This document shows, in pieces, positions 19,893 through 63,343 of a stretch of 64,000 nt of DNA; position 1 is the stretch's first letter; each line of letters starts with the position of its first letter. Below the pieces are notes generated by a model, which saw only the letters and a program-made list of their open reading frames with translations, did no database searches and had not been told where the DNA came from. The stretch spans positions 62,001 through 126,000 of the forward strand of contig NZ_CSTE01000005.1 in the NCBI RefSeq assembly GCF_001368915.1. Reading direction: 5' to 3'. Made by a program: the position numbers and the translations under genes. Source of the DNA: Haloferax massiliensis. GTDB taxonomy: Archaea; Halobacteriota; Halobacteria; Halobacteriales; Haloferacaceae.

Positions 19893-20942
19893 TCAGATGC
19901 GCCAGTTCAGCGAGTACGAACTGTCGGTCATGGTCTCGTTCGTCTCGGTACCGTTCGTCATGGTCTCGTTCGTTCCGGTGCTGTTCGTCGTCTCGTTCGT
20001 GGAACTCGAAGCCGACCTCGTCTGTTCGGCCGGTGTGCCCGTACCGGCCGTGACGGTTCCGCTCGTCAGTTCACTCAGCGGGGCCTGAATTGCATAGCTC
20101 GGCGTCTCGACCTGAATCGTGCTCTGCGCGTCGACCTGCACGAACTTCAGTTCGAGCGTGTACGTGCCGTCGGATTCGATTTCGGTCGCTTCGACCTGAT
20201 CGGTCTGCGGATGGAACGCCCATGCCGTCTCGCCGGCGTCGAGTCGGTTGGTCTCGCCTTCGATGGTCCGAACCGTGTAGTCCCGGTTCGTATCGGACCC
20301 CGCAAGCGGGTAGTTGCGGTCGAGCCACGACTGGAAGCCTTCGTCGATGGCGTACACGTTCTCGAAGCCGGTCGAGAGCAGCATCGCCGCTCGGAGCGAC
20401 GACAGGTGGTGCGGACAGTGGCAGTAGGTCACCACGCGGTCCGCCTCGTTCCAGTCGCTCGTGGGGTCGAGCGCACGCCCGTCCGGTGCAGGGCTGAGAA
20501 CGGACCCGAAGATGTGAGAGACCTCGTATCCGGTCTCGCTGCGGGCGTCGACGAACCGCGCCTCCCCGCGCGCGTACCAGTAGTACGCGTCTTCGATGGG
20601 AACGAGCGGGACCTCGACGGTCACGCCTTGAACCTCTCGGGTGAGCGTGTCGTAAGCGCTCGTGTCGATAGACCGCTCTTCCGGCACGGTGTCGAACTCC
20701 GGCGGGTAACCGTCCGAGGGCTTGGAGTCGGTCGGCAAGTCGTCGCCCTCGCGTGGCCCACGCATCTGGTTTTCCGGCGCGGCCGTGGTCGTCTGCGTCG
20801 TCTGCGTGGAGGCGGAGGTGGTCGTCCGGGTTGTGGTCGTCGTCTCGTCCGAAGACCCGCTCGAACAGCCCGCGAGTCCGGCAATCGTCGCTGCACCGGT
20901 CAACTGAAGGAACCGTCTGCGGCTCGACTGTCGTTCTGTCAT
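19893..20942 (-). CDS. Rhodanese-domain Tat lipoprotein
   Basis: 349 residues. The start MTERQSSRRRFLQLTGAATIAGLAGC gives a Tat signal with lipobox Cys. A Thr-rich linker follows. The rhodanese domain spans about residues 105-205: YYWYARGEARFVDARSETGYEVSHIFGS, then the active-site loop CHCPHHLSS whose first Cys is the likely sulfur carrier. A beta-rich domain comes next, and the tail is made of NETxTNGT-like repeats with several N-x-T sequons. It probably acts outside the membrane on sulfur or oxyanion compounds; the substrate is unknown. ATG 20942 preferred to GTG 20945. Confidence 0.88.
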   Translation of the reverse strand: MTERQSSRRRFLQLTGAATIAGLAGCSSGSSDETTTTTRTTTSASTQTTQTTTAAPENQMRGPREGDDLPTDSKPSDGYPPEFDTVPEERSIDTSAYDTLTREVQGVTVEVPLVPIEDAYYWYARGEARFVDARSETGYEVSHIFGSVLSPAPDGRALDPTSDWNEADRVVTYCHCPHHLSSLRAAMLLSTGFENVYAIDEGFQSWLDRNYPLAGSDTNRDYTVRTIEGETNRLDAGETAWAFHPQTDQVEATEIESDGTYTLELKFVQVDAQSTIQVETPSYAIQAPLSELTSGTVTAGTGTPAEQTRSASSSTNETTNSTGTNETMTNGTETNETMTDSSYSLNWRI

Positions 20943-21059
20943 CACCAGCCACTACTAATCATCAGATGTTTATTATATACAGAATAAGGGTCGAGCGTCC
21001 TCGATATCTCTGGTGAGCAGTTCGGAGGCTGCGAACCTATCGGACCACTAAATCACCGC

Positions 21060-21637: not shown

Positions 21638-21657
21638 TTACTCATCCCATAGTAAGG
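21638..21657 (+). promoter_or_regulatory. Glycan-regulon motif, glmM
   Basis: TTA, eight bases, ATAGTAAGG; the right half ends 24 nt before the glmM ATG. Same spacing as the other copies listed in this window. Confidence 0.65.
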
Positions 21658-25259: not shown

Positions 25260-25279
25260 TTATCTCGCGTATAATAAGG
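25260..25279 (+). promoter_or_regulatory. Glycan-regulon motif, glmU
   Basis: TTA (25260-25262), eight bases, ATAATAAGG (25271-25279), ending 24 nt before the glmU ATG. CTTAT and ATAAG form an inverted repeat. Confidence 0.75.
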
Positions 25280-28427: not shown

Positions 28428-30236
28428 TTACTCGACCGTGACACTCTTGGCGAGGTTTCGAGGCTTGTCTATCTCGCGGTCCAACTCGGTCGCACAGTAG
28501 TACGAGAGGAGCTGTAACTGGACGTTCGCGAGGAGATTCGTACAGACGGGGTGCCTGTCGGGGACGTAGAGGTGCTCGTCCGCGGCGTCCATTATCTGGT
28601 GGTCCGACGGGCAGATGGCGACGATGGGCGCACCGCGGGTCTTCGCCTCCTTAGCGTTTGTCACCGTCTTGTCGCTGCCGTCGGTACAGACCGCGAAGAC
28701 GGGAGTTCGGTCGGTGACGAGCGCCAGCGGGCCGTGTTTGAGTTCGCCGGAGGCGAACCCCTCAGCGTGCTCGTAGGTGATCTCCTTGAACTTGAGCGCG
28801 CCCTCCTTGGCAACCGAACAGCCGAGTCCGCGGCCGATGAAGAAGTACGCGTTCATGTCGAGGTACTCGCGGGCGAGTCGCTTGGCGTCGCTCGTCTGGA
28901 GCACCCGTTCGACGGCGTCGGGGAGGTCGGCCATGTCGGAGACGAGTCGGTCGAGGTTGTCCGCGGGGACGCCGGAATCGACGATATCCGAGAGGTGCTG
29001 GCTGAGGAGCGTGAGGACCGCGGCCTGCGACGAGAACGTCTTCGTGGCCGCGACGCCGATTTCGGGGCCGGCGCGGATGTAGACCGGTTCGTCCGCCTCG
29101 CGGGCGGCGGTCGACTGCACGACGTTCGTCACCGCGAGCGTCTCGACGCCCTCCTCGTTGACCTGTCGGAGCGCGCTGAGCGTGTCCGCCGTCTCGCCGC
29201 TCTGAGTGACCGCGATGAACAGCGTGTTGTCAGTCAGCGACCCCGTGGTCAGGTCGTACTCGCTCGCGCGAATCGCGCGCGCCGGAACGTCACAGCGGTT
29301 CAGGAGGCTCGCACCGAACAGCGCGGCGTGGTACGAGGTGCCGCATCCGACGAGTTGGACGGAGTCGACCTCCGAGAGGTCGGTCTCGATGTCGAGTTCG
29401 ATTTCGCCCGACGCCGGGTCGAGACGCCCTTCGAGCGTCTTCTGGAGCGAGGTCGGCTGCGTGTGAATCTCCTTGAGCATGAAGTGGTCGAACTGCCCCT
29501 TGCCGGTCTCGTCGGGGTTCCAGTCGACCGTCTCGACTTCGCGCCGCACCGTCACGTCGTCCTCGTCGGTGATGTCGACGCCGTCGGCGCGGACCTCGAC
29601 CGTGTCGCCGTCTTCGAGGTAGACGACGTTCTTCGTGTGGTCGAGGAACGCGGGCACGTCGCTCGCGAGGAAGTAGCTGTCCTCGTCGACGCCGAGGACG
29701 AGCGGCGACCCCTGTCGCGCGGCGTAGATGGAGTCGTTGCCGTCGATGACGACCGCGATGGCGTAGCTCCCTTCGAGCGTGTCGACCGCGTGCTGGAACG
29801 CCGCAAGCGGCTCGTTTCCGCGGTCGAGGTAGTAGCTGACGAGGTTCGGAATGACCTCGGTGTCGGTGTCGCTCGTGAACTCGTAGCCCTTCTCTTCGAG
29901 GGTGTCCTTGAGCGCCGCGTAGTTCTCGATGATGCCGTTGTGGACCGCGGCGACCTGGTTCGTCCGGTTCGTGTGCGGGTGCGCGTTCTCGTCGGTCGGC
30001 GGCCCGTGGGTGCTCCATCGCGTGTGTCCGATACCGAGCGTCGCGCTCGACTCGACCCCGTCGATGGTCTCTTTGAGGTCCGAAACCTGACCCGAGCACT
30101 TCCACACGTCCAGTCCCGAGCCGTTTTTCACCGCGATACCGGCGGAGTCGTAGCCGCGGTACTCCAGTTTTTCGAGCCCGGTGACGAGCGGGCTGATGGC
30201 CCGCCGTTCACCGACGTGAGCGATGATTCCGCACAT
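28428..30236 (-). CDS. glmS: Glutamine-fructose-6-phosphate aminotransferase (isomerizing)
   Basis: 602 residues, full length. It begins MCGIIAHVGERR with the catalytic Cys2 and contains GHTRWSTHG of the glutaminase domain. Two SIS sugar-isomerase domains follow (VQLVGCGTSYHAALFG and YFIGRGLGCSVAKEGALKFKEI), ending with LAKSVTVE. It commits fructose-6-P to amino-sugar synthesis. The ATG at 30236 is fixed by Cys2. A 39-codon ORF ends 1 nt upstream and the shared motif lies 180 nt upstream, so the transcript has a leader. Confidence 0.97.
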   Translation of the reverse strand: MCGIIAHVGERRAISPLVTGLEKLEYRGYDSAGIAVKNGSGLDVWKCSGQVSDLKETIDGVESSATLGIGHTRWSTHGPPTDENAHPHTNRTNQVAAVHNGIIENYAALKDTLEEKGYEFTSDTDTEVIPNLVSYYLDRGNEPLAAFQHAVDTLEGSYAIAVVIDGNDSIYAARQGSPLVLGVDEDSYFLASDVPAFLDHTKNVVYLEDGDTVEVRADGVDITDEDDVTVRREVETVDWNPDETGKGQFDHFMLKEIHTQPTSLQKTLEGRLDPASGEIELDIETDLSEVDSVQLVGCGTSYHAALFGASLLNRCDVPARAIRASEYDLTTGSLTDNTLFIAVTQSGETADTLSALRQVNEEGVETLAVTNVVQSTAAREADEPVYIRAGPEIGVAATKTFSSQAAVLTLLSQHLSDIVDSGVPADNLDRLVSDMADLPDAVERVLQTSDAKRLAREYLDMNAYFFIGRGLGCSVAKEGALKFKEITYEHAEGFASGELKHGPLALVTDRTPVFAVCTDGSDKTVTNAKEAKTRGAPIVAICPSDHQIMDAADEHLYVPDRHPVCTNLLANVQLQLLSYYCATELDREIDKPRNLAKSVTVE

Positions 30237-30237
30237 G

Positions 30238-30357
30238 TTAGCGGTCCTCCGCGTGTCGGAAAACACGCGCCGTGCCGGTCGTCGTTGGCTGCGGACGGTT
30301 CAGAGCGGACGAGGTGGCGGCGTTCGGCTCCACCCGGTGTTGTTTGCTGTGTGTCAT
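30238..30357 (-). CDS. Short ORF in the glmS leader
   Basis: 39 residues (MTHSKQHRVEPNAATSS..., ending HAEDR), whose TAA stop is separated from the glmS ATG by one base. It lies between the regulon motif and glmS. The peptide is basic and polar with no known domain. The tight junction suggests translational coupling; it may be a leader peptide or chance. Confidence 0.35.
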   Translation of the reverse strand: MTHSKQHRVEPNAATSSALNRPQPTTTGTARVFRHAEDR

Positions 30358-30415: not shown

Positions 30416-30436
30416 CCATTACTATAGACGCGCTAA
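30416..30436 (-). promoter_or_regulatory. Glycan-regulon motif, glmS operon
   Basis: Minus strand TTA, eight bases, ATAGTAATGG. It lies 59 nt upstream of the leader ORF and 180 nt upstream of glmS, farther than in most copies. Confidence 0.65.
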
Positions 30437-30562: not shown

Positions 30563-30582
30563 TTACACGGCCGATAATAATG
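30563..30582 (+). promoter_or_regulatory. Glycan-regulon motif, DsbA-like gene
   Basis: TTA, eight bases, ATAATAATG, ending 25 nt before the ATG at 30607. It is divergent from the glmS copy 127 nt away. Confidence 0.7.
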
Positions 30583-35027: not shown

Positions 35028-36131
35028 TCAGATCGTGGTCGGGTCTTTATCGGGGCCGTAAAACACGTCTTGCCAGTCGCGGGTCACGTGCGTTCCCCAC
35101 TCGATGTCAAGTTCGGGGAGCTCCTGTCCCATCGCGTACTGCACGCTGAGCGCGGGGATGTTGGCACCCGCACCGACCGAAGCGGTGACGGACGGGGAGA
35201 GTCGCGGATGGATATCGACGAGTTTCGGCCTGCCGGCGGCGGTGTATTTGAACCGGAACGTGACGTTGTACTCCAACCCGAAGACCGAACAGAGCTCGCG
35301 GGTGTCTTGCAGGAGTTCCGGGTTCTCTTCGACGGTTCCGACGAACGAGGCGTCGTCGCAGGCCTCGTTGTGAGACCGGGAGACGAGAATCGGCGTCTCG
35401 TCGTCGCGGACGAGCGCGTCCACGGTGTACTCCTCGCCGGGTAGGAACTCCATCACGACGAGTTCGGGGAACTGGACCGTCTCTTGGAGGACGGGCAGCA
35501 CGTCGCCCAACGTCGTGACGGTGCTGTTCGGTTTCTGGTTCAACAGCGCGTTGAACCGGTCCATGTCCGGGTCGAGGACGCGAAAGCAGCGCATGTCGGT
35601 GCTCACGGGGGGTTTGAAACAGACGCGGCGGTTGGGGTAGCCGAGCGCGTGCACCGCGTCGAGGAACTCGTCGTACGTGGAGACGCGGTAGAACTCGGGT
35701 GCCACCGGGTGGGCCTGCTTGACGAGTTCGTCGTACAGTCGCCCTTTGTCTCTGGCAACCGACAGCGCCTGCGGCGAGAGGGCCATCACTTCGATACCCT
35801 CGCTCTCGAAGACGGGCTTCGCTTCGGAGAGGGGGCCGACCTCCGCCGCGTTGAGTGGGAGGATTACGTCGGCGTCTTCGCGGCGAGCGACCGCCAGCAG
35901 GTCGGAGACGAACGCGTCGGTGTCGGCAGCGGGAACCGTCTCCGCCGTGTCGACGAGGGTGAAGCCGTAGGCGTCCGGGTCCGTGTCGACGCCGACGATG
36001 TGCGCGTCGAACGCGTCGGCCCGGCGAATCGCCTTGATGATACCCGAAGCGCCGACGGCACCGGCGCCGGTCACCAGCACGGTCACATCACCGTCTCGGC
36101 TTGACGGTCGGACTGTATCCAGCAGTGTCAT
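35028..36131 (-). CDS. ATP-grasp carboxylate-amine ligase
   Basis: 367 residues. An N-terminal Rossmann-like part (TVLVTGAGAVGASGIIKAIRRAD) leads into the ATP-grasp fold: RVCFKPPVSTDMRC for the nucleotide Lys, VVMEFLPGEEYTVDALV for the hinge, and KLVDIHPRLSPS with the Mg-binding acidic/Asn-type segment. It resembles carbamoyl-phosphate-synthase large-subunit-like ligases found in polysaccharide loci. It would form an amide or ester from a carboxylate and an amine, possibly on a uronic acid. Own leaderless promoter with the shared motif. Confidence 0.85.
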   Translation of the reverse strand: MTLLDTVRPSSRDGDVTVLVTGAGAVGASGIIKAIRRADAFDAHIVGVDTDPDAYGFTLVDTAETVPAADTDAFVSDLLAVARREDADVILPLNAAEVGPLSEAKPVFESEGIEVMALSPQALSVARDKGRLYDELVKQAHPVAPEFYRVSTYDEFLDAVHALGYPNRRVCFKPPVSTDMRCFRVLDPDMDRFNALLNQKPNSTVTTLGDVLPVLQETVQFPELVVMEFLPGEEYTVDALVRDDETPILVSRSHNEACDDASFVGTVEENPELLQDTRELCSVFGLEYNVTFRFKYTAAGRPKLVDIHPRLSPSVTASVGAGANIPALSVQYAMGQELPELDIEWGTHVTRDWQDVFYGPDKDPTTI

Positions 36132-36156: not shown

Positions 36157-36176
36157 CCTTATTATATAGCAGATAA
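36157..36176 (-). promoter_or_regulatory. Glycan-regulon motif, ATP-grasp operon
   Basis: Minus strand TTA, eight bases, ATAATAAGG ending 26 nt before the ATG at 36131. Nearly identical to the glmU copy. Confidence 0.75.
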
Positions 36177-40724: not shown

Positions 40725-40745
40725 CCATTATTATCGGGACGGTAA
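40725..40745 (-). promoter_or_regulatory. Glycan-regulon motif, acetyltransferase/dehydrogenase operon
   Basis: Minus strand TTACCG, three bases, CGATAATAATGG, so the arms TTACCG/CGATAA form a near-perfect dyad. It lies 61 nt upstream of the first ORF. Confidence 0.75.
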
Positions 40746-44348: not shown

Positions 44349-45020
44349 TTACTGCGACAGCGTCGCTTCGATGAGTCGGGAGATGGCTCGGCGAATCCGC
44401 TGTGAGACGCCCGACTTGGAGATGCCGAGGATGGTCGCCAACTCGCCCTGCGAGGACCCCCGCGGCACCTCGAAATAGCCGTTCTCGTGGGCGACGAGGA
44501 GCGCCTTGCGCTGTCCCGGGAGGAGCGCCGTCTCGGAGCCGACGTCGGTGTCGCGGGCGACGTGGAGGCGCTTGACGCGAAACGAGATATCGTTGTCGTG
44601 GTAGTGTTCTTGCACCCGGTGAAGCGTCGAGTGAGCGGGGAGGTGCATCTGGATGTACCACTTGCTGTTTTCGTGACGGACGGAGATGACCCGGACGCCC
44701 ATCTCCGTCGAGGACGGGGGAATCAGTTGGACGCCGCTGCCGAAGAGGACGCGAAACCGGCGGTCGGAGCCGACGGAACCGAGGAAGTCCGCCTCTATCA
44801 CGGTCGGGTCGACGACGAGAGACGCCGCGACCGAATCGACGGCACCCTGTTCGACGACGACGAACGCGCAGTCCCAGCCGAGCCCCTCGGTCGGTTGGAA
44901 TTCGAGTTCGACCGGCCCCTGATGTCCCGCGACGAACGACGAGAGAATCAGTCTCGGGTCGTCGAGAGTAATCTCCAGATAGATCGGTCGAGCGTCGTCT
45001 CCACTACGGTCCTCGTGCAT
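44349..45020 (-). CDS. Bat-type HTH transcription regulator
   Basis: 223 residues. An N-terminal beta-rich sensor-like domain (about 160 residues) precedes a C-terminal helix-turn-helix of the HTH-10 (Bat) type: LLPGQRKALLVAHENGYFEVPRGSSQGELATILGISKSGVSQRIRRAISRLIEATLSQ. It lies between two beta-helix/glycosyltransferase units and its own promoter carries the shared motif, so autoregulation and control of the whole locus are possible. This is the best local candidate for the motif-binding protein, by position only. Confidence 0.85.
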   Translation of the reverse strand: MHEDRSGDDARPIYLEITLDDPRLILSSFVAGHQGPVELEFQPTEGLGWDCAFVVVEQGAVDSVAASLVVDPTVIEADFLGSVGSDRRFRVLFGSGVQLIPPSSTEMGVRVISVRHENSKWYIQMHLPAHSTLHRVQEHYHDNDISFRVKRLHVARDTDVGSETALLPGQRKALLVAHENGYFEVPRGSSQGELATILGISKSGVSQRIRRAISRLIEATLSQ

Positions 45021-45045
45021 CGCCTGTTGTTCGACAATCGGTACG

Positions 45046-45065
45046 GGTTATTATGCAGGTGGTAA
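45046..45065 (-). promoter_or_regulatory. Glycan-regulon motif, Bat-type regulator
   Basis: Minus strand TTACC, six bases, ATAATAACC, ending 26 nt before the ATG at 45020. Confidence 0.7.
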
Positions 45066-45177: not shown

Positions 45178-46218
45178 ATGTACAAAGACAACTCAATCGC
45201 CGTCGTCGTGCCGGCCTACAACGAAGAGGGCTACGTCGGGGAGGTAATCGACACGCTCCCCTCGTTCGTCGACGTGGCCTACGTCGTCGACGACGGGTCG
45301 ACAGACGGGACGTGGGACGAAATCGTGACGCACGCCGACGCGTTCAACGAGGACCACACCCCCGAAGCGTCGGCGTACGACGACGTGGTCGTCCCGATTC
45401 AACACGACGAGAACCGCGGGGTCGGCGGCGCGCTCAAGACCGGCTACCTCCGCGCGCTCGAAGACGAAGTCGACATCACGGCCGTCCTCGGCGGCGACGG
45501 GCAGATGAACCCCAACGAGCTGGCGAAGTATCTCGACCCCATCGCGGAGGGCGACGCGGACTACGCGAAGGGCAACCGATTCATGGAGCAGGCGGACCTC
45601 GACGCCATGCCGGGGTACCGCCTCGTCGGCAACTCCATCCTGTCGTACCTGACGAAGTTCGCCAGCGGCTACTGGAAGACGATGGACCCGCAGAACGGCT
45701 ACACCGCGATTTCCCACGAGGCGTTGAAGCAGGCCGACATCGAGAACATGTACGAGTACTACGGCTACTGCAACGACCTGCTCGTCAAACTCAACGCCGA
45801 GAACCTCCGCGTCGCGGACATCGCCTGCTCCGCGGAGTACCTCTACGACGACGACTGGAAGAGCCACATCGACTACGGCGAGTACGTCCCGCGCGTCTCG
45901 GGCATGCTCCTCCGGAACTACTTCTGGCGGCTGAAAAACAAGTACATGCTCCGCGACTTCCACCCGCTCGCGGCGTTCTACTACCTTGGAACCGCTATCG
46001 CGGGCGTCGCAGCCATCGGTCTCATCGGCTCGGGGCTGGCGCGAAACGGCGACGGCGACGACGACGGCGACGCGCCCGGCCTCGGGAGTTGGGCGATCGG
46101 TCTCCTCTTCGGCATCACGTTTCTGCTGTTCGGCACGGTCCTCGACCACAACGACAACGAAGCGCTCGAAATTCGGGTCGACGACGACACCTACGACACC
46201 GAGATTCCGAGCGAATAA
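45178..46218 (+). CDS. Membrane-bound family 2 glycosyltransferase
   Basis: 346 residues. GT-A motif IAVVVPAYNEEGYVGEVIDTLPSFVDVAYVVDDGSTDGTWDE, second acidic motif LGGDGQMNPNELAKYL, and acceptor region GNRFMEQADLDAMPGYRLVGNSILSYLTKFASGYW. Two membrane helices near the C-terminus (FYYLGTAIAGVAAIGLIGSGL and IGLLFGITFLLFGTVL). It resembles dolichyl-phosphate or polyprenyl-phosphate sugar synthases, so it may load a lipid carrier. ATG 45178 chosen; the motif lies at a leaderless distance. Confidence 0.9.
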   Translation: MYKDNSIAVVVPAYNEEGYVGEVIDTLPSFVDVAYVVDDGSTDGTWDEIVTHADAFNEDHTPEASAYDDVVVPIQHDENRGVGGALKTGYLRALEDEVDITAVLGGDGQMNPNELAKYLDPIAEGDADYAKGNRFMEQADLDAMPGYRLVGNSILSYLTKFASGYWKTMDPQNGYTAISHEALKQADIENMYEYYGYCNDLLVKLNAENLRVADIACSAEYLYDDDWKSHIDYGEYVPRVSGMLLRNYFWRLKNKYMLRDFHPLAAFYYLGTAIAGVAAIGLIGSGLARNGDGDDDGDAPGLGSWAIGLLFGITFLLFGTVLDHNDNEALEIRVDDDTYDTEIPSE

Positions 46219-47964: not shown

Positions 47965-47985
47965 TTACCGACCCGATAATCATGG
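47965..47985 (+). promoter_or_regulatory. Glycan-regulon motif, GT4 gene
   Basis: TTACCG, three bases, CGATAATCATGG, ending 27 nt before the ATG at 48013. Arms TTACCG/CGATAA. Confidence 0.75.
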
Positions 47986-52030: not shown

Positions 52031-53059
52031 TTAGTCGGCGGACTCTATCTCGATAGAGACCGAGTCGCCGTTCTTGAGGTAGTAGTCGGTTGGGTCGACG
52101 GACTCGCCGTTCACGGTGACGGTCACGGTCCCGTTTTCACCGTCGTAGGGGTAGGTCGTTCCGTTGTAGGTGACGCTCTCGTCGGTCATGTTGATGCCGT
52201 CGAGCGTCGACATGCCGTAGGCGAGCGTGACGTGCGCGGAGTGCGCGTGCCACGGGTTCGAGTGGCCGCCCTCGAAGTGGAAGTGGTCGTTGTGACCCGC
52301 CTGCTGGTACTTGTCGCGGCTGAAGTCGAGTTGCTCGCCGTCGACGGTGAAGTCGATAGTGCCGTGGACGTGGAGCTGTTCCGGCGGGATGTACTCGCCG
52401 GGGGCGGTGACGTTCGAGTCGTCGGTCACGACCAGCACCCACACCTTGTCGTCCGATTCGAGCGTGTACTCCTCGGGGTCGACCTCGTGGCTATCGACGC
52501 GGTAGATGAGTTTCGTCCCGTCTTCGGACTCCTCGTAGGTCTCGCCGTCGTAGGTCAGCGACGACTCGGTGGCGTCGACGTCCGCCGCGTCGAGCGCCTC
52601 CGCGAGCGTCGTGCTCTCGTTCGTGTGCCACGAGTCGACGTCGCTCATGTGAATCGGCGCGTCCTCGTCGAGGTCCTCTGTGAGGCTCACGCGCTCGCCG
52701 CCGACCATGACGGCCATCTGCCCGGTGTACGCCGCGTCGACGGTCGACTCGTCGCTGGCGTTCGTCGGCGAGTCGTGGCTGTGTGAGTCGGAGTCTGCGT
52801 CGGAGGCGGAATCCGACGACTCGTTCGTCTCGTTCGCGGACGTCGTCTCCGCGGCCGTCGCGTCGTCCGTAGACGTCGTTTCGTTCGCGGCCCCCTCGAC
52901 GTCGGACGCGGTCATCTCCGTCGTGTCCGCGGTGTCAGTCGCCGCTGTCGTGCCTCCCGCGTCGCCGCCCGCGAACGACGAACAGCCGGCCGTCGTCATC
53001 AAGAGCGCGACGAGGAGAGCGATACTCGCACGTTTCAGTGTCTTGGATGGAATCTCCAT
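52031..53059 (-). CDS. His-rich lipoprotein of unknown function
   Basis: 342 residues from the ATG at 53059 (MEIPSKTLKRASIALLVALLMTTAGC, a Sec-type signal with lipobox); the longer GTG start at 53092 overlaps the promoter motif. A Ser/Thr/Asp-rich linker follows. The C-terminal domain holds HVHGTIDFTVDG and HNDHFHFEGGHSNPWHAHSAH, a cluster of about eight His suited to metal binding. Two ubiquitin-like or thiamin-like beta domains may be present (VTVTVNGESVDPTDYYLKNGDSVSI). Metal capture at the cell surface is a guess from composition. Confidence 0.8.
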   Translation of the reverse strand: MEIPSKTLKRASIALLVALLMTTAGCSSFAGGDAGGTTAATDTADTTEMTASDVEGAANETTSTDDATAAETTSANETNESSDSASDADSDSHSHDSPTNASDESTVDAAYTGQMAVMVGGERVSLTEDLDEDAPIHMSDVDSWHTNESTTLAEALDAADVDATESSLTYDGETYEESEDGTKLIYRVDSHEVDPEEYTLESDDKVWVLVVTDDSNVTAPGEYIPPEQLHVHGTIDFTVDGEQLDFSRDKYQQAGHNDHFHFEGGHSNPWHAHSAHVTLAYGMSTLDGINMTDESVTYNGTTYPYDGENGTVTVTVNGESVDPTDYYLKNGDSVSIEIESAD

Positions 53060-53091
53060 CTCGAACTCGAACGAGACATCACAGTCACCCA

Positions 53092-53112
53092 CCGTTATTA
53101 TCGACTACGTAG
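53092..53112 (-). promoter_or_regulatory. Glycan-regulon motif, His-rich lipoprotein
   Basis: Minus strand CTA, eight bases, ATAATAACGG, ending 33 nt before the ATG at 53059. Confidence 0.6.
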
Positions 53113-53119
53113 CGGCGGC

Positions 53120-53138
53120 TTATCGGCCCGATAATTAG
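53120..53138 (+). promoter_or_regulatory. Glycan-regulon motif, DUF4129 operon
   Basis: TTATCG, three bases, CGATAA is a perfect dyad here, followed by TTAG. It lies 63 nt before the ATG at 53201 and is back to back with the lipoprotein copy. Confidence 0.7.
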
Positions 53139-55862: not shown

Positions 55863-56548
55863 GCGGAGCGGGAGCGGTCACCAGACGGCCGGCGCGACTC
55901 AGCGCGGCGCTGTCGCTGTTCGCCGCCGCGCTCTCTGTATCCGTCGTGGTCTCCGGCGCGTCCGCGGGGTTGTTCGCGGCCGTGGCCGGACTCGTCATCA
56001 CGAGCGAGGGCGCACACCGCTTCAGAACGGGACGGCAACTGCTCGGCGTGCTCGGCCTGCTCGTCGGTGTCCTCGTCGCCGTCGGCGGTGCCGGCGCGGC
56101 CGCGGCGAGCGCCGCCGGCCGACCGCAACTCATCGAGACCGGGCTCGGTATCCTCGGCGTGTTCTGCCTCGGACTCGGGGTGCTTCCGCTCCGCGGAGCC
56201 GGGTCGCGCGGACTGTGTAAACTCGGGTGCGCGTCGGTTCTCCTGACGGTCGTCGCCGGCGGTCTGTTCCAGACGGCCGGCTTGCTCGCCCTGCTCGTCT
56301 CGTGTGCGGCGCTCGTCGTGTCGTGGGACGCCGCGGAGAACTCCATCTCGGTGGGCGAACAGTTGGGCCGCGAGTCGAGGACGTGGACCATCGAGGCGGC
56401 CCACTTCGGCGGAAGCGCGCTCGTCGGGGGCGTCGCGGTCGGGGCCGGACTCGTCGTCCGCGACCTCGGGACGCCCGGACTACCGCTTCACGCGGTCGCG
56501 TTCATGCTCGTCGCCCTCGTCTTCCTCACGCTCGCCCTCCACGATTGA
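55859..56548 (+). CDS. Polytopic membrane protein ending the DUF58 operon (DUF7519-like)
   Basis: 229 residues with about six hydrophobic segments (LSAALSLFAAALSVSVVVSGASAGLFAAVAGLVI, QLLGVLGLLVGVLVAVGG and others), beginning MSGAGAVTRRPARL. The soluble loop VSWDAAENSISVGEQLGRESRTWTIEAAHFGGS is conserved in haloarchaeal last genes of this operon. It overlaps the convergent moxR gene by 23 nt. Confidence 0.78.
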   Translation: MSGAGAVTRRPARLSAALSLFAAALSVSVVVSGASAGLFAAVAGLVITSEGAHRFRTGRQLLGVLGLLVGVLVAVGGAGAAAASAAGRPQLIETGLGILGVFCLGLGVLPLRGAGSRGLCKLGCASVLLTVVAGGLFQTAGLLALLVSCAALVVSWDAAENSISVGEQLGRESRTWTIEAAHFGGSALVGGVAVGAGLVVRDLGTPGLPLHAVAFMLVALVFLTLALHD

Positions 56549-57494
56549 CCGTGGGGACGGAGACTTCGGCGAGCACGTCGTCGACGAGTTGGCTCCGCTC
56601 GACGTTGTCGACGGTCGCCTCGGCGGTCGGGACGATTCGGTGGGCGACCGTCGCGTGGACGACGGCCTTCACGTCGTCCGGGATGACGAACCCCCGACCG
56701 TGGACGGCGGCCGTCGCGCGGACGACCTCGAACAGCCGTTGACAGCCGCGCGGCGAGACGCCGACCGCGACGCGCGGGTCCGCTCTGCTCGCGCGAACGA
56801 TGTCGACGATGTACTGTTTTATCTCGTCGTCGACGCGGACCGTCTCGGGGACGCGCTGCATCTCCCGGACGAGGTCCGTCGAGAGGACCCGCGACACCGT
56901 CGGCGTGGGTTCGTCGCGCGCGTCGCGGCGGTCGAGCAGTTCCAGTTCGCCCGCTTCGTCGGGATAGCCGAGACTGTCTTTGATGAGAAACCGGTCTTTC
57001 TGCGCTTCGGGCAGGGGGAACGTCCCATCGCCCTGTTCGACCGGATTCTGCGTGGCGATGACGAAAAACGGGTCGGGAAGCGGGTGCGTCTCGCCGTCGA
57101 CCGTCACCTGCTCTTCGGCCATCGCTTCGAGGAGCGCGGCCTGCGTCTTCGGCGACGCGCGGTTGATCTCGTCCGCGAGGACGACGTTCGCGAACAGCGG
57201 GCCCTCGCTGAACTCGAACGACCGGTCTCGCTCGTCGAACACGTACGTCCCGGTCACGTCCGCGGGAAGGAGGTCGGGCGTGAACTGGATTCGACTAAAC
57301 GAGAGGCCGAGCGCCGTGGCGAAGCTCTGTGCGGTCAGGGTCTTTCCGGTGCCGGGAACGTCTTCGAGGAGGACGTGTCCCTGCGAGAGCGCTCCGGTGA
57401 GGACGCGCCGGAGAACGGTGCGGTCCACGACGACCGAGCGAGCGATTTCGTCGAGAACGCGCGTGCTGTGGCCGTGGAGGTCGTTGATGTCCAT
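56526..57494 (-). CDS. MoxR-family AAA+ ATPase
   Basis: 322 residues. Walker A VLLEDVPGTGKTL, Walker B VVLADEINRASPKTQAALLEAM, sensor I FFVIATQNPVEQGDGTFPLPEAQKDRF, and the C-terminal lid with a DPRVAVGVSPRGCQRLFE sensor II. It acts as a chaperone-like ATPase with DUF58/DUF4129 proteins. In most haloarchaea it is co-directional with that operon; here it is convergent, with its own leaderless motif promoter. Confidence 0.93.
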   Translation of the reverse strand: MDINDLHGHSTRVLDEIARSVVVDRTVLRRVLTGALSQGHVLLEDVPGTGKTLTAQSFATALGLSFSRIQFTPDLLPADVTGTYVFDERDRSFEFSEGPLFANVVLADEINRASPKTQAALLEAMAEEQVTVDGETHPLPDPFFVIATQNPVEQGDGTFPLPEAQKDRFLIKDSLGYPDEAGELELLDRRDARDEPTPTVSRVLSTDLVREMQRVPETVRVDDEIKQYIVDIVRASRADPRVAVGVSPRGCQRLFEVVRATAAVHGRGFVIPDDVKAVVHATVAHRIVPTAEATVDNVERSQLVDDVLAEVSVPTVNRGGRA

Positions 57495-57516: not shown

Positions 57517-57537
57517 CCATTATTATCCGATAGGTAA
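57517..57537 (-). promoter_or_regulatory. Glycan-regulon motif, moxR
   Basis: Minus strand TTACC, six bases, ATAATAATGG, ending 23 nt before the ATG at 57494. Confidence 0.75.
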
Positions 57538-57557: not shown

Positions 57558-57577
57558 TTACCGGCTCGATAATAATG
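57558..57577 (+). promoter_or_regulatory. Glycan-regulon motif, second GT2 gene
   Basis: TTACCG, three bases, CGATAATAATG, ending 33 nt before the ATG at 57610; divergent from the moxR copy. Confidence 0.75.
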
Positions 57578-58566: not shown

Positions 58567-59871
58567 TCACTCGTCGAACGGCGACTCCGCGCCCTTCGGC
58601 ATCGACCCCTCTTCGGCGACGACGTTCTGCCGGCCCACCGATATCTTCTCGATGTCCTCGTTTTCGTCCATGCTCGACAGCAGTCGGCTGACCTTCGACT
58701 TCGACCACCCCGTCTGGTCGACGATTTTGCTCTGGTAGACCCAGCCGCCGTTGTCGCGGAGCAGTTGGATGACCTTGTCCTCGTCGGTCAGGACGGGCTG
58801 GGACGACTGCTGGAGTTCGTCTCGGTCGAACTCCGGCGGCTCCGACTGGGAGTCCGGTGTGTCGCCTCCCTCGTCCGTCTCGGTTCCGAGGGGGTCGAAC
58901 AGCCGAGACGCGGACAGCGACGAGCCGAGCTGATACCTCGACGAGGCGAGGAACCAGCGACCGCCGACGGCGACGACTCCGAGCAGCGTCCCGGCCGTGA
59001 ACAGGAGCATCGGGGTCGTGCTGCCGTCGGTGGCGTCAGTCCCGAGCCGCTGCTCTAGCCCGTCGTTCAGTCCGTCGCCGTCGGTGTCGGGGTCGACGGG
59101 GTTGGTGCCGTGTTCGTACTCGTACCCGTCGTCCAGCCCGTCGCCGTCGGTGTCGACGGTGGCGTTGTTCGGCGGCGTTCCCAGTCGCATCTCGACGCCG
59201 TCCGGAATGCCGTCGCCGTCGGTGTCGGGGTTCGTCGGGTTCAACGAGTTCGACAGTTCGACCGCGTCGTTCAGTCCGTCGCCGTCGGTGTCGGGTGCCG
59301 TCGGAGACGTCCCGTGCTTCTTCACCTCGGCCCCGTCTTCGAGGCTGTCCCTGTCGGTGTCCTTGAGAAACATAGAGGTGTTGTTGGTCCGCTCGTTCAC
59401 GTTGCTGAGATTGTCGCCGTCGACGTCGCCTTGCTTCTCAAGTATCGTGACGTTGATCCTGTCGGTGGCGATTCGCTCCGCCTGCCCCGGGAAGCTCTTC
59501 CAGAGGACGACAGAGACGTTGCTCGACCCCTCGAACTCGGAGAGGGACTCGTACTCGAACTCGACGGTCTGGTTGCCGGACGTGCCACTGGCCTCGGTGC
59601 AGCCGACCTGCTCGCCGCCGCCGTCCCTCACGCACACCTCGTACGTGTTGGACTCGCTCGGGGAGTCGAACTCGACGGCGAGCGTATTCGGCTCTGAGGC
59701 CCAGAGATACGTCGAGCCACTCGTCCGGTCGGTGGAAATCGTGTTCGTGAACGTCCCCTCGACGGACGTCTCGTCGGCCGCCAAATCGGCCGTCGCCAGC
59801 ACCGGGGCGGGGACGACTGCGCCGGAGAGAACGAGCACGACCAGAACGAACGTCGCACGAGCGTACGACAT
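58567..59871 (-). CDS. Membrane-bound HTH regulator with extracellular calcium-type repeats
   Basis: 434 residues. Sec-type signal MSYARATFVLVVLVLSGAVVPAPVLA, an outer beta-rich domain (to about residue 155), then six thrombospondin type-3-like repeats with DTDGDGLND, DTDGDGIPD and DTDGDGLDD calcium-binding patterns (about 160-290). One membrane helix follows (PMLLFTAGTLLGVVAVGGRWFLA), an acidic linker, and a cytoplasmic winged helix (DKVIQLLRDNGGWVYQSKIVDQTGWSKSKVSRLLSSMDENEDIEKISVGR) of DUF7343 type. This is a one-component design linking an outside calcium-binding rod to DNA. ATG 59871 chosen for the signal peptide. Confidence 0.85.
   Translation of the reverse strand: MSYARATFVLVVLVLSGAVVPAPVLATADLAADETSVEGTFTNTISTDRTSGSTYLWASEPNTLAVEFDSPSESNTYEVCVRDGGGEQVGCTEASGTSGNQTVEFEYESLSEFEGSSNVSVVLWKSFPGQAERIATDRINVTILEKQGDVDGDNLSNVNERTNNTSMFLKDTDRDSLEDGAEVKKHGTSPTAPDTDGDGLNDAVELSNSLNPTNPDTDGDGIPDGVEMRLGTPPNNATVDTDGDGLDDGYEYEHGTNPVDPDTDGDGLNDGLEQRLGTDATDGSTTPMLLFTAGTLLGVVAVGGRWFLASSRYQLGSSLSASRLFDPLGTETDEGGDTPDSQSEPPEFDRDELQQSSQPVLTDEDKVIQLLRDNGGWVYQSKIVDQTGWSKSKVSRLLSSMDENEDIEKISVGRQNVVAEEGSMPKGAESPFDE
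59074..59420 (-). repeat. DNA repeats encoding the calcium-type motifs
   Basis: The block reading CCGTCGCCGTCGGTGTCG on the plus strand occurs four times, at about 59080, 59143, 59212 and 59278, spaced 63-69 bp. It encodes the conserved DTDGDG core; copies could recombine and vary in number. Confidence 0.75.
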
Positions 59872-63322: not shown

Positions 63323-63343
63323 CCATTATTATGGTTTAGATAA
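63323..63343 (-). promoter_or_regulatory. Glycan-regulon motif, DegT/Gfo operon
   Basis: Minus strand TTATC, six bases, ATAATAATGG, 51 nt before the 29-codon ORF and 137 nt before DegT. Confidence 0.75.

Follow-up and report, generated by a model that had tools for sequence, protein, structure and literature searches.

ArnR and ArnR1 of Sulfolobus acidocaldarius, which activate archaellum genes, are one-component regulators bound to the membrane (PMC6396743). Among haloarchaeal regulators, Bat, NarO and DmsR are HTH_10 activators, for which the cited passages name bop, denitrification and DMSO-respiration genes as targets (PMC11218638; Bat: PMC2253796, PMC3184054), and CsmR of Haloferax volcanii belongs to the Lrp/AsnC family, with the element TATCA-N4-TGATA beside the TATA box (PMC13286277). 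The surface-glycan locus of Haloferax massiliensis described here resembles each of these in part. Its shared promoter box is, like the CsmR element, a semi-palindromic haloarchaeal element near the TATA box, but the sequence and the candidate regulator family are different, and the 65 ChIP peaks of CsmR (PMC13286277) contrast with a single locus here. BAT1, a Bat-type protein encoded in the locus, has the same HTH_10 domain as NarO and DmsR and, like them in the text cited, is without PAS and GAF domains (PMC11218638); the box, however, tracks DUF7344 and not HTH_10. The predicted DUF7344 protein in turn recalls ArnR, with an N-terminal HTH, two C-terminal transmembrane helices and an association with promoters of surface-structure genes (PMC6396743). 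ArnR, in contrast, is crenarchaeal and carries HAMP and sensor domains, the likeness being one of architecture with no claim of family membership, and the ~20 promoters that DUF7344 would serve all belong to one glycan locus.

About twenty promoters of this sugar-coat gene cluster share the box. The window, by which we mean the whole 64,000-nucleotide stretch of DNA analyzed, corresponds to C5:62001-126000 of the H. massiliensis genome (4.0 Mb), and the copies inside it are listed in Table 1. All 11 exact genomic copies of the core TTATTAT-N8-TAA lie in C5:82970-134305, which is 1.3% of the genome, while the reversed pattern, taken as a control, occurs once in the genome. Of the 17 genome-wide copies of the refined form TTA-N8-ATARTAA, 15 lie in the 56-kb glycan locus (C5:82970-138989), and a matrix built from the copies finds, at a threshold of 14 bits, 24 sites in 124 kb versus 0.6 in shuffles. 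The box is thus a genuine element that is nearly private to one surface-glycan locus. The locus encodes glycosyltransferases, sugar-nucleotide dehydrogenases, a nucleotidyltransferase, phosphohexomutases, a DegT aminotransferase and a polysaccharide-type flippase. With moderate confidence we regard TTAY(C)-N6/7-ATARTAA, 18 bp long, as an operator merged with the core promoter of genes in this one locus that have a short leader or none.

The geometry of the box is constant. It mostly lies 24 to 37 nt upstream of start codons, with a fixed 8-nt spacing. In two sets of sites, 167 from loci within the family and 163 from loci of other families, the gap between ATARTAA and the start codon peaks at 25 to 34 nt, unlike random positions. 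Among the promoters tested, those with ATARTAA 20 to 40 nt before a start codon, TTA is found exactly 8 nt upstream of ATARTAA in 74/92 and 86/122. The box can accordingly be placed at the TATA position, with the ATARTAA half in the place of a TATA box and the TTAY half just upstream of the BRE position. Judged by this position, ATARTAA would act as the TATA box.

Such a placement could also mean that the box is a core promoter of a special kind, read by a TFB or TBP variant, the more so as ATARTAA was found 20 to 40 nt before the start in none of the promoters of a smaller set of control loci and as haloarchaea carry many TFBs. However, a general-factor variant is expected to have targets outside the locus, TTAY is conserved upstream of the BRE position, and no TFB is present in the glycan locus among the matches listed. 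Nor does TFB number predict the box within Haloferax: counts of TFIIB-repeat matches are alike in genomes with boxes (15 to 22) and without them (13 to 22). We therefore consider a general-factor variant quite unlikely.

The earlier note had described the box as a dyad element. The outer TTAY/RTAA are indeed symmetric, but within ATARTAA the inner ATA has no mirror copy, which makes the box directional; a simple palindrome was rejected, the symmetry being confined to these outer parts. Two near-perfect box palindromes are seen in loci of relatives (L235 and L213).

Table 1. Box copies and genes of interest in the window (window coordinates)
Feature	Position	Strand	Remark
Box copy	20970..20987	-	gene 19893-20945
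Box copy	21638..21655	+	phosphohexomutase 21673
Box copy	25260..25277	+	nucleotidyltransferase 25304
Box copy	30419..30436	-	SIS/GATase gene 28428-30266; predicted start 152 nt off
Box copy	30563..30580	+	thioredoxin-fold gene ending 31638
Box copy	36159..36176	-	ATP-grasp gene 35028-36131
Box copy	40728..40745	-	between sugar-nucleotide dehydrogenase and DUF1616 genes
BAT1, small soluble BAT + HTH_10 protein, 223 aa	44349..45020	-	predicted box target
Box copy TTACCACCTGCATAATAA	45048..45065	-	BAT1 promoter, 27 nt upstream of ATG
Box copy CTACGATGCCCATAATAA	45125..45142	+	divergent GT2 gene, likely ATG 45180
GT2 glycosyltransferase, boxed	45180..46218	+	likely ATG 45180
Box copy	47965..47982	+	GT1 48013
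Box copy	53095..53112	-	gene 52031-53092
Box copy	53120..53137	+	DUF4129 gene 53201
Box copy	57520..57537	-	MoxR ATPase 56526-57494
Box copy	57558..57575	+	GT2 57610
Secreted/membrane TSP3-repeat protein, C-terminal DUF7343 HTH	58567..59871	-	internal ATG start inferred; possible partner regulator
DUF7344 protein, predicted winged helix + two C-terminal membrane helices	60195..60830	-	best candidate box reader
Box copy	63326..63343	-	DegT/GFO-IDH genes 63186-61062; predicted start 139 nt off

BAT1 has the domains of a Bat-type protein in Pfam, BAT (PF15915; 1.9e-6) and HTH_10 (PF04967; 8.8e-16). Its promoter carries a box back to back with a second copy for a glycosyltransferase, as had been noted earlier, the two facing apart with each oriented toward its own gene. 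Box copies at the Bat/GT pair are also present in Haloferax relatives, Halobellus, G112 and G169, and the boxed pair itself is found in G025, G112, G169 and G093; G103 and G084 have the boxed arrangement too, Bat there being seemingly the second gene of an operon. As position, orientation and cross-genus conservation all fit, BAT1 is probably controlled by the box. That it is the only soluble HTH regulator with a box holds true within the window, but a second BAT/HTH_10 gene past the window end, BAT2 (window coordinates 68843-69501; L012:4843-5501), is boxed as well, with a gap of 26 nt. A small DUF7343 gene and PAS/GAF regulators neighbor BAT2 just beyond the window end.

The claim that Bat both is controlled by the box and controls it survives in its first half only. 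For the second half, BAT1, alone or with BAT2, would bind the box and regulate its own gene. Both promoters are boxed, the close BAT1 orthologues (E < 1e-45) among 170 family genomes are confined to box-rich ones (11/11), and H. mucosum (G032), which is missing BAT1, keeps a BAT2-like paralogue as its only one. The converse, however, fails. Genomes that keep the motif and lack the regulator, the case that had been set against the idea beforehand, were found (G008, G009, G021, G042, G044, and G032). Halegenticoccus (G008 and G009) has 6 to 7 boxes per 40 to 60 kb, and no HTH_10 was found in these box regions. At the G021, G042 and G044 loci HTH_10 is present only in large proteins, and a local BAT-only homologue is missing there and from most Natrialbales loci. 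Among 48 loci with at least two boxes that were retrieved with DUF7344 as the seed, 38 have no HTH_10 within ~20 kb and 10 have at least one, the windows being of a size that more distant regulators may escape. BAT1 is accordingly not present wherever a box cluster is, either in the loci compared or in the seeded ones. Conversely, many genomes of genus g17 have a BAT homologue with a score comparable to some in box loci and no box cluster. The recognition helices of BATs from element loci vary (SKSGVSQRIRR, STSAVSDRLRR and SPSAVSQQLRR) while the box is constant, and their HTH_10 domains share 58% identity, versus 52% with other HTH_10 proteins. Because other genera keep the box without a BAT-only HTH_10 gene, Bat control of the box is unsupported. 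Boxes without BAT, BAT-like genes without boxes and divergent recognition helices together led us to reject BAT1 as the best model of the box reader, a role that we judge quite improbable for it. A distant HTH_10 protein may act on the box in trans.

Among the alternatives that the earlier note had listed, DUF7344 fits best, ahead of both DUF7343 and a variant general factor. A DUF7344 protein is encoded in 23/23 of the box loci compared, which were defined before any DUF7344-seeded search. The one exception is G095, a genome 68% complete, where two box matches are separated by 10 kb and DUF7344 has no match. We also ranked the 170 family genomes by the best E-value per genome, from hand-transcribed tables, with 26 genomes labelled positive by hand for having at least two exact box matches within 30 kb; G009 was not labelled positive, as its cluster shows only with the matrix. 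For box genomes, the AUC is 0.961 for DUF7344, 0.943 for TSP3-DUF7343 and 0.895 for BAT, and the positives ranking above the best negative number 23/26, 14/26 and 11/26, respectively.

The reverse test gave a matching picture. Here 68 loci from named genomes were fetched by the DUF7344 protein alone, some of them overlapping the family set examined above (Haloferax, Halobellus, Halegenticoccus, and Halogranum) and independent ones including Natrinema, Natronorubrum, Natrialba, Haloarcula, Halostella and Halosimplex. With DUF7344 at 125 bits or more, at least one box is found in 55/61 loci and at least three in 47/61, compared with 0 to 0.4 per locus in shuffles; below 125 bits, boxes occur in 0/7. 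The box-rich loci recovered in this way span several haloarchaeal families. Co-occurrence does not prove DNA binding, since co-inheritance of a gene cluster makes glycosylation genes co-occur as well. In the DUF7344 tree, most box-locus proteins form one supported clade that also includes box-free paralogues, and domain identity is 71% across box loci versus 53% to paralogues. Six loci of the clade are box-free, several of them being extra paralogues with a box locus elsewhere in the same genome; a diverged box beside such paralogues was looked for and not found. Clade genes without a nearby box (L221, L229, L237, L240, and L245) are possibly paralogues with other targets.

DUF7344 is the sole Pfam assignment of the protein itself, at 106.5 bits to PF24035 against a cut-off of 27.8. 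An AlphaFold model, of moderate confidence with a mean pLDDT of 67, has helices at residues 38-45, 48-57, 66-77 and 87-107 and wing strands at 111-114 and 119-122; the C-terminal part then forms two long helices, at 152-171 and 182-209, which are hydrophobic by sequence. A Foldseek search of the model against the PDB returned no match at E <= 0.001; the best matches, all weak, include many winged-helix structures. With a predicted cytoplasmic HTH and transmembrane helices, DUF7344 would qualify as a membrane-tethered one-component regulator. The promoter of its own gene has no box. No paper on DUF7344 was found among the open-access papers searched.

The TSP3-DUF7343 protein is a further candidate, in which extracellular TSP3 repeats would sense the envelope and a cytoplasmic HTH would bind the box. 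It adjoins DUF7344 in many loci and is found in most box loci, and a DUF7343 protein is present in 37/48 DUF7344-seeded box loci. However, 11/48 of these have no DUF7343 protein, TSP3-DUF7343 is missing from the box loci of G021, G008 and G009b and is found without box clusters in G023, G164 and G166, and its HTH has 54% identity across box loci. As sole reader we regard it as unlikely. In Haloferax genomes, TSP3-DUF7343 paralogues are also found close to a TFB gene (G023:C8:57365-61344 and G032:C12:24227-35915), possibly a separate regulatory locus. Two smaller loci, L133 (G112:C1:965001-985000) and L135 (G135:C42:36001-56000), combine DUF7344, a DUF7343 protein and few boxes, and no HTH_10 was found in either.

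Some other trans-acting regulator, encoded elsewhere, might also read the box, and our in-depth tests covered local HTH families only. Confinement of the box to a single locus and its reciprocal association with DUF7344 nevertheless favor a local factor, which makes a remote one very unlikely. We thus return to DUF7344, which, perhaps together with TSP3-DUF7343, probably reads the box, with Bat as a downstream member of the regulon. Held in the membrane, DUF7344 would read the box at every boxed promoter, and TSP3-DUF7343 may be an envelope sensor alongside it. As the BAT1 promoter is one of about twenty that are boxed, the Bat genes would be downstream members that probably relay or tune the output and do not themselves read the box. 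Binding may, with about equal likelihood, repress by blocking the TATA position or activate a weak TATA box. More broadly, we lean slightly toward DUF7344 proteins being transcription factors that are tethered to the membrane and widespread among haloarchaea; this clade would read a TATA-embedded operator at ~20 promoters of a single surface-glycan locus, conserved across several haloarchaeal families. If this is correct, the locus would offer a regulator, its operator and a complete predicted regulon for haloarchaeal surface-polysaccharide synthesis, testable in tractable Haloferax strains, and DUF7344 would gain its first function. A weak DUF7344 relative (36.6 bits) is also encoded near the DegT operon, on the + strand at 63436-64044 of the window.
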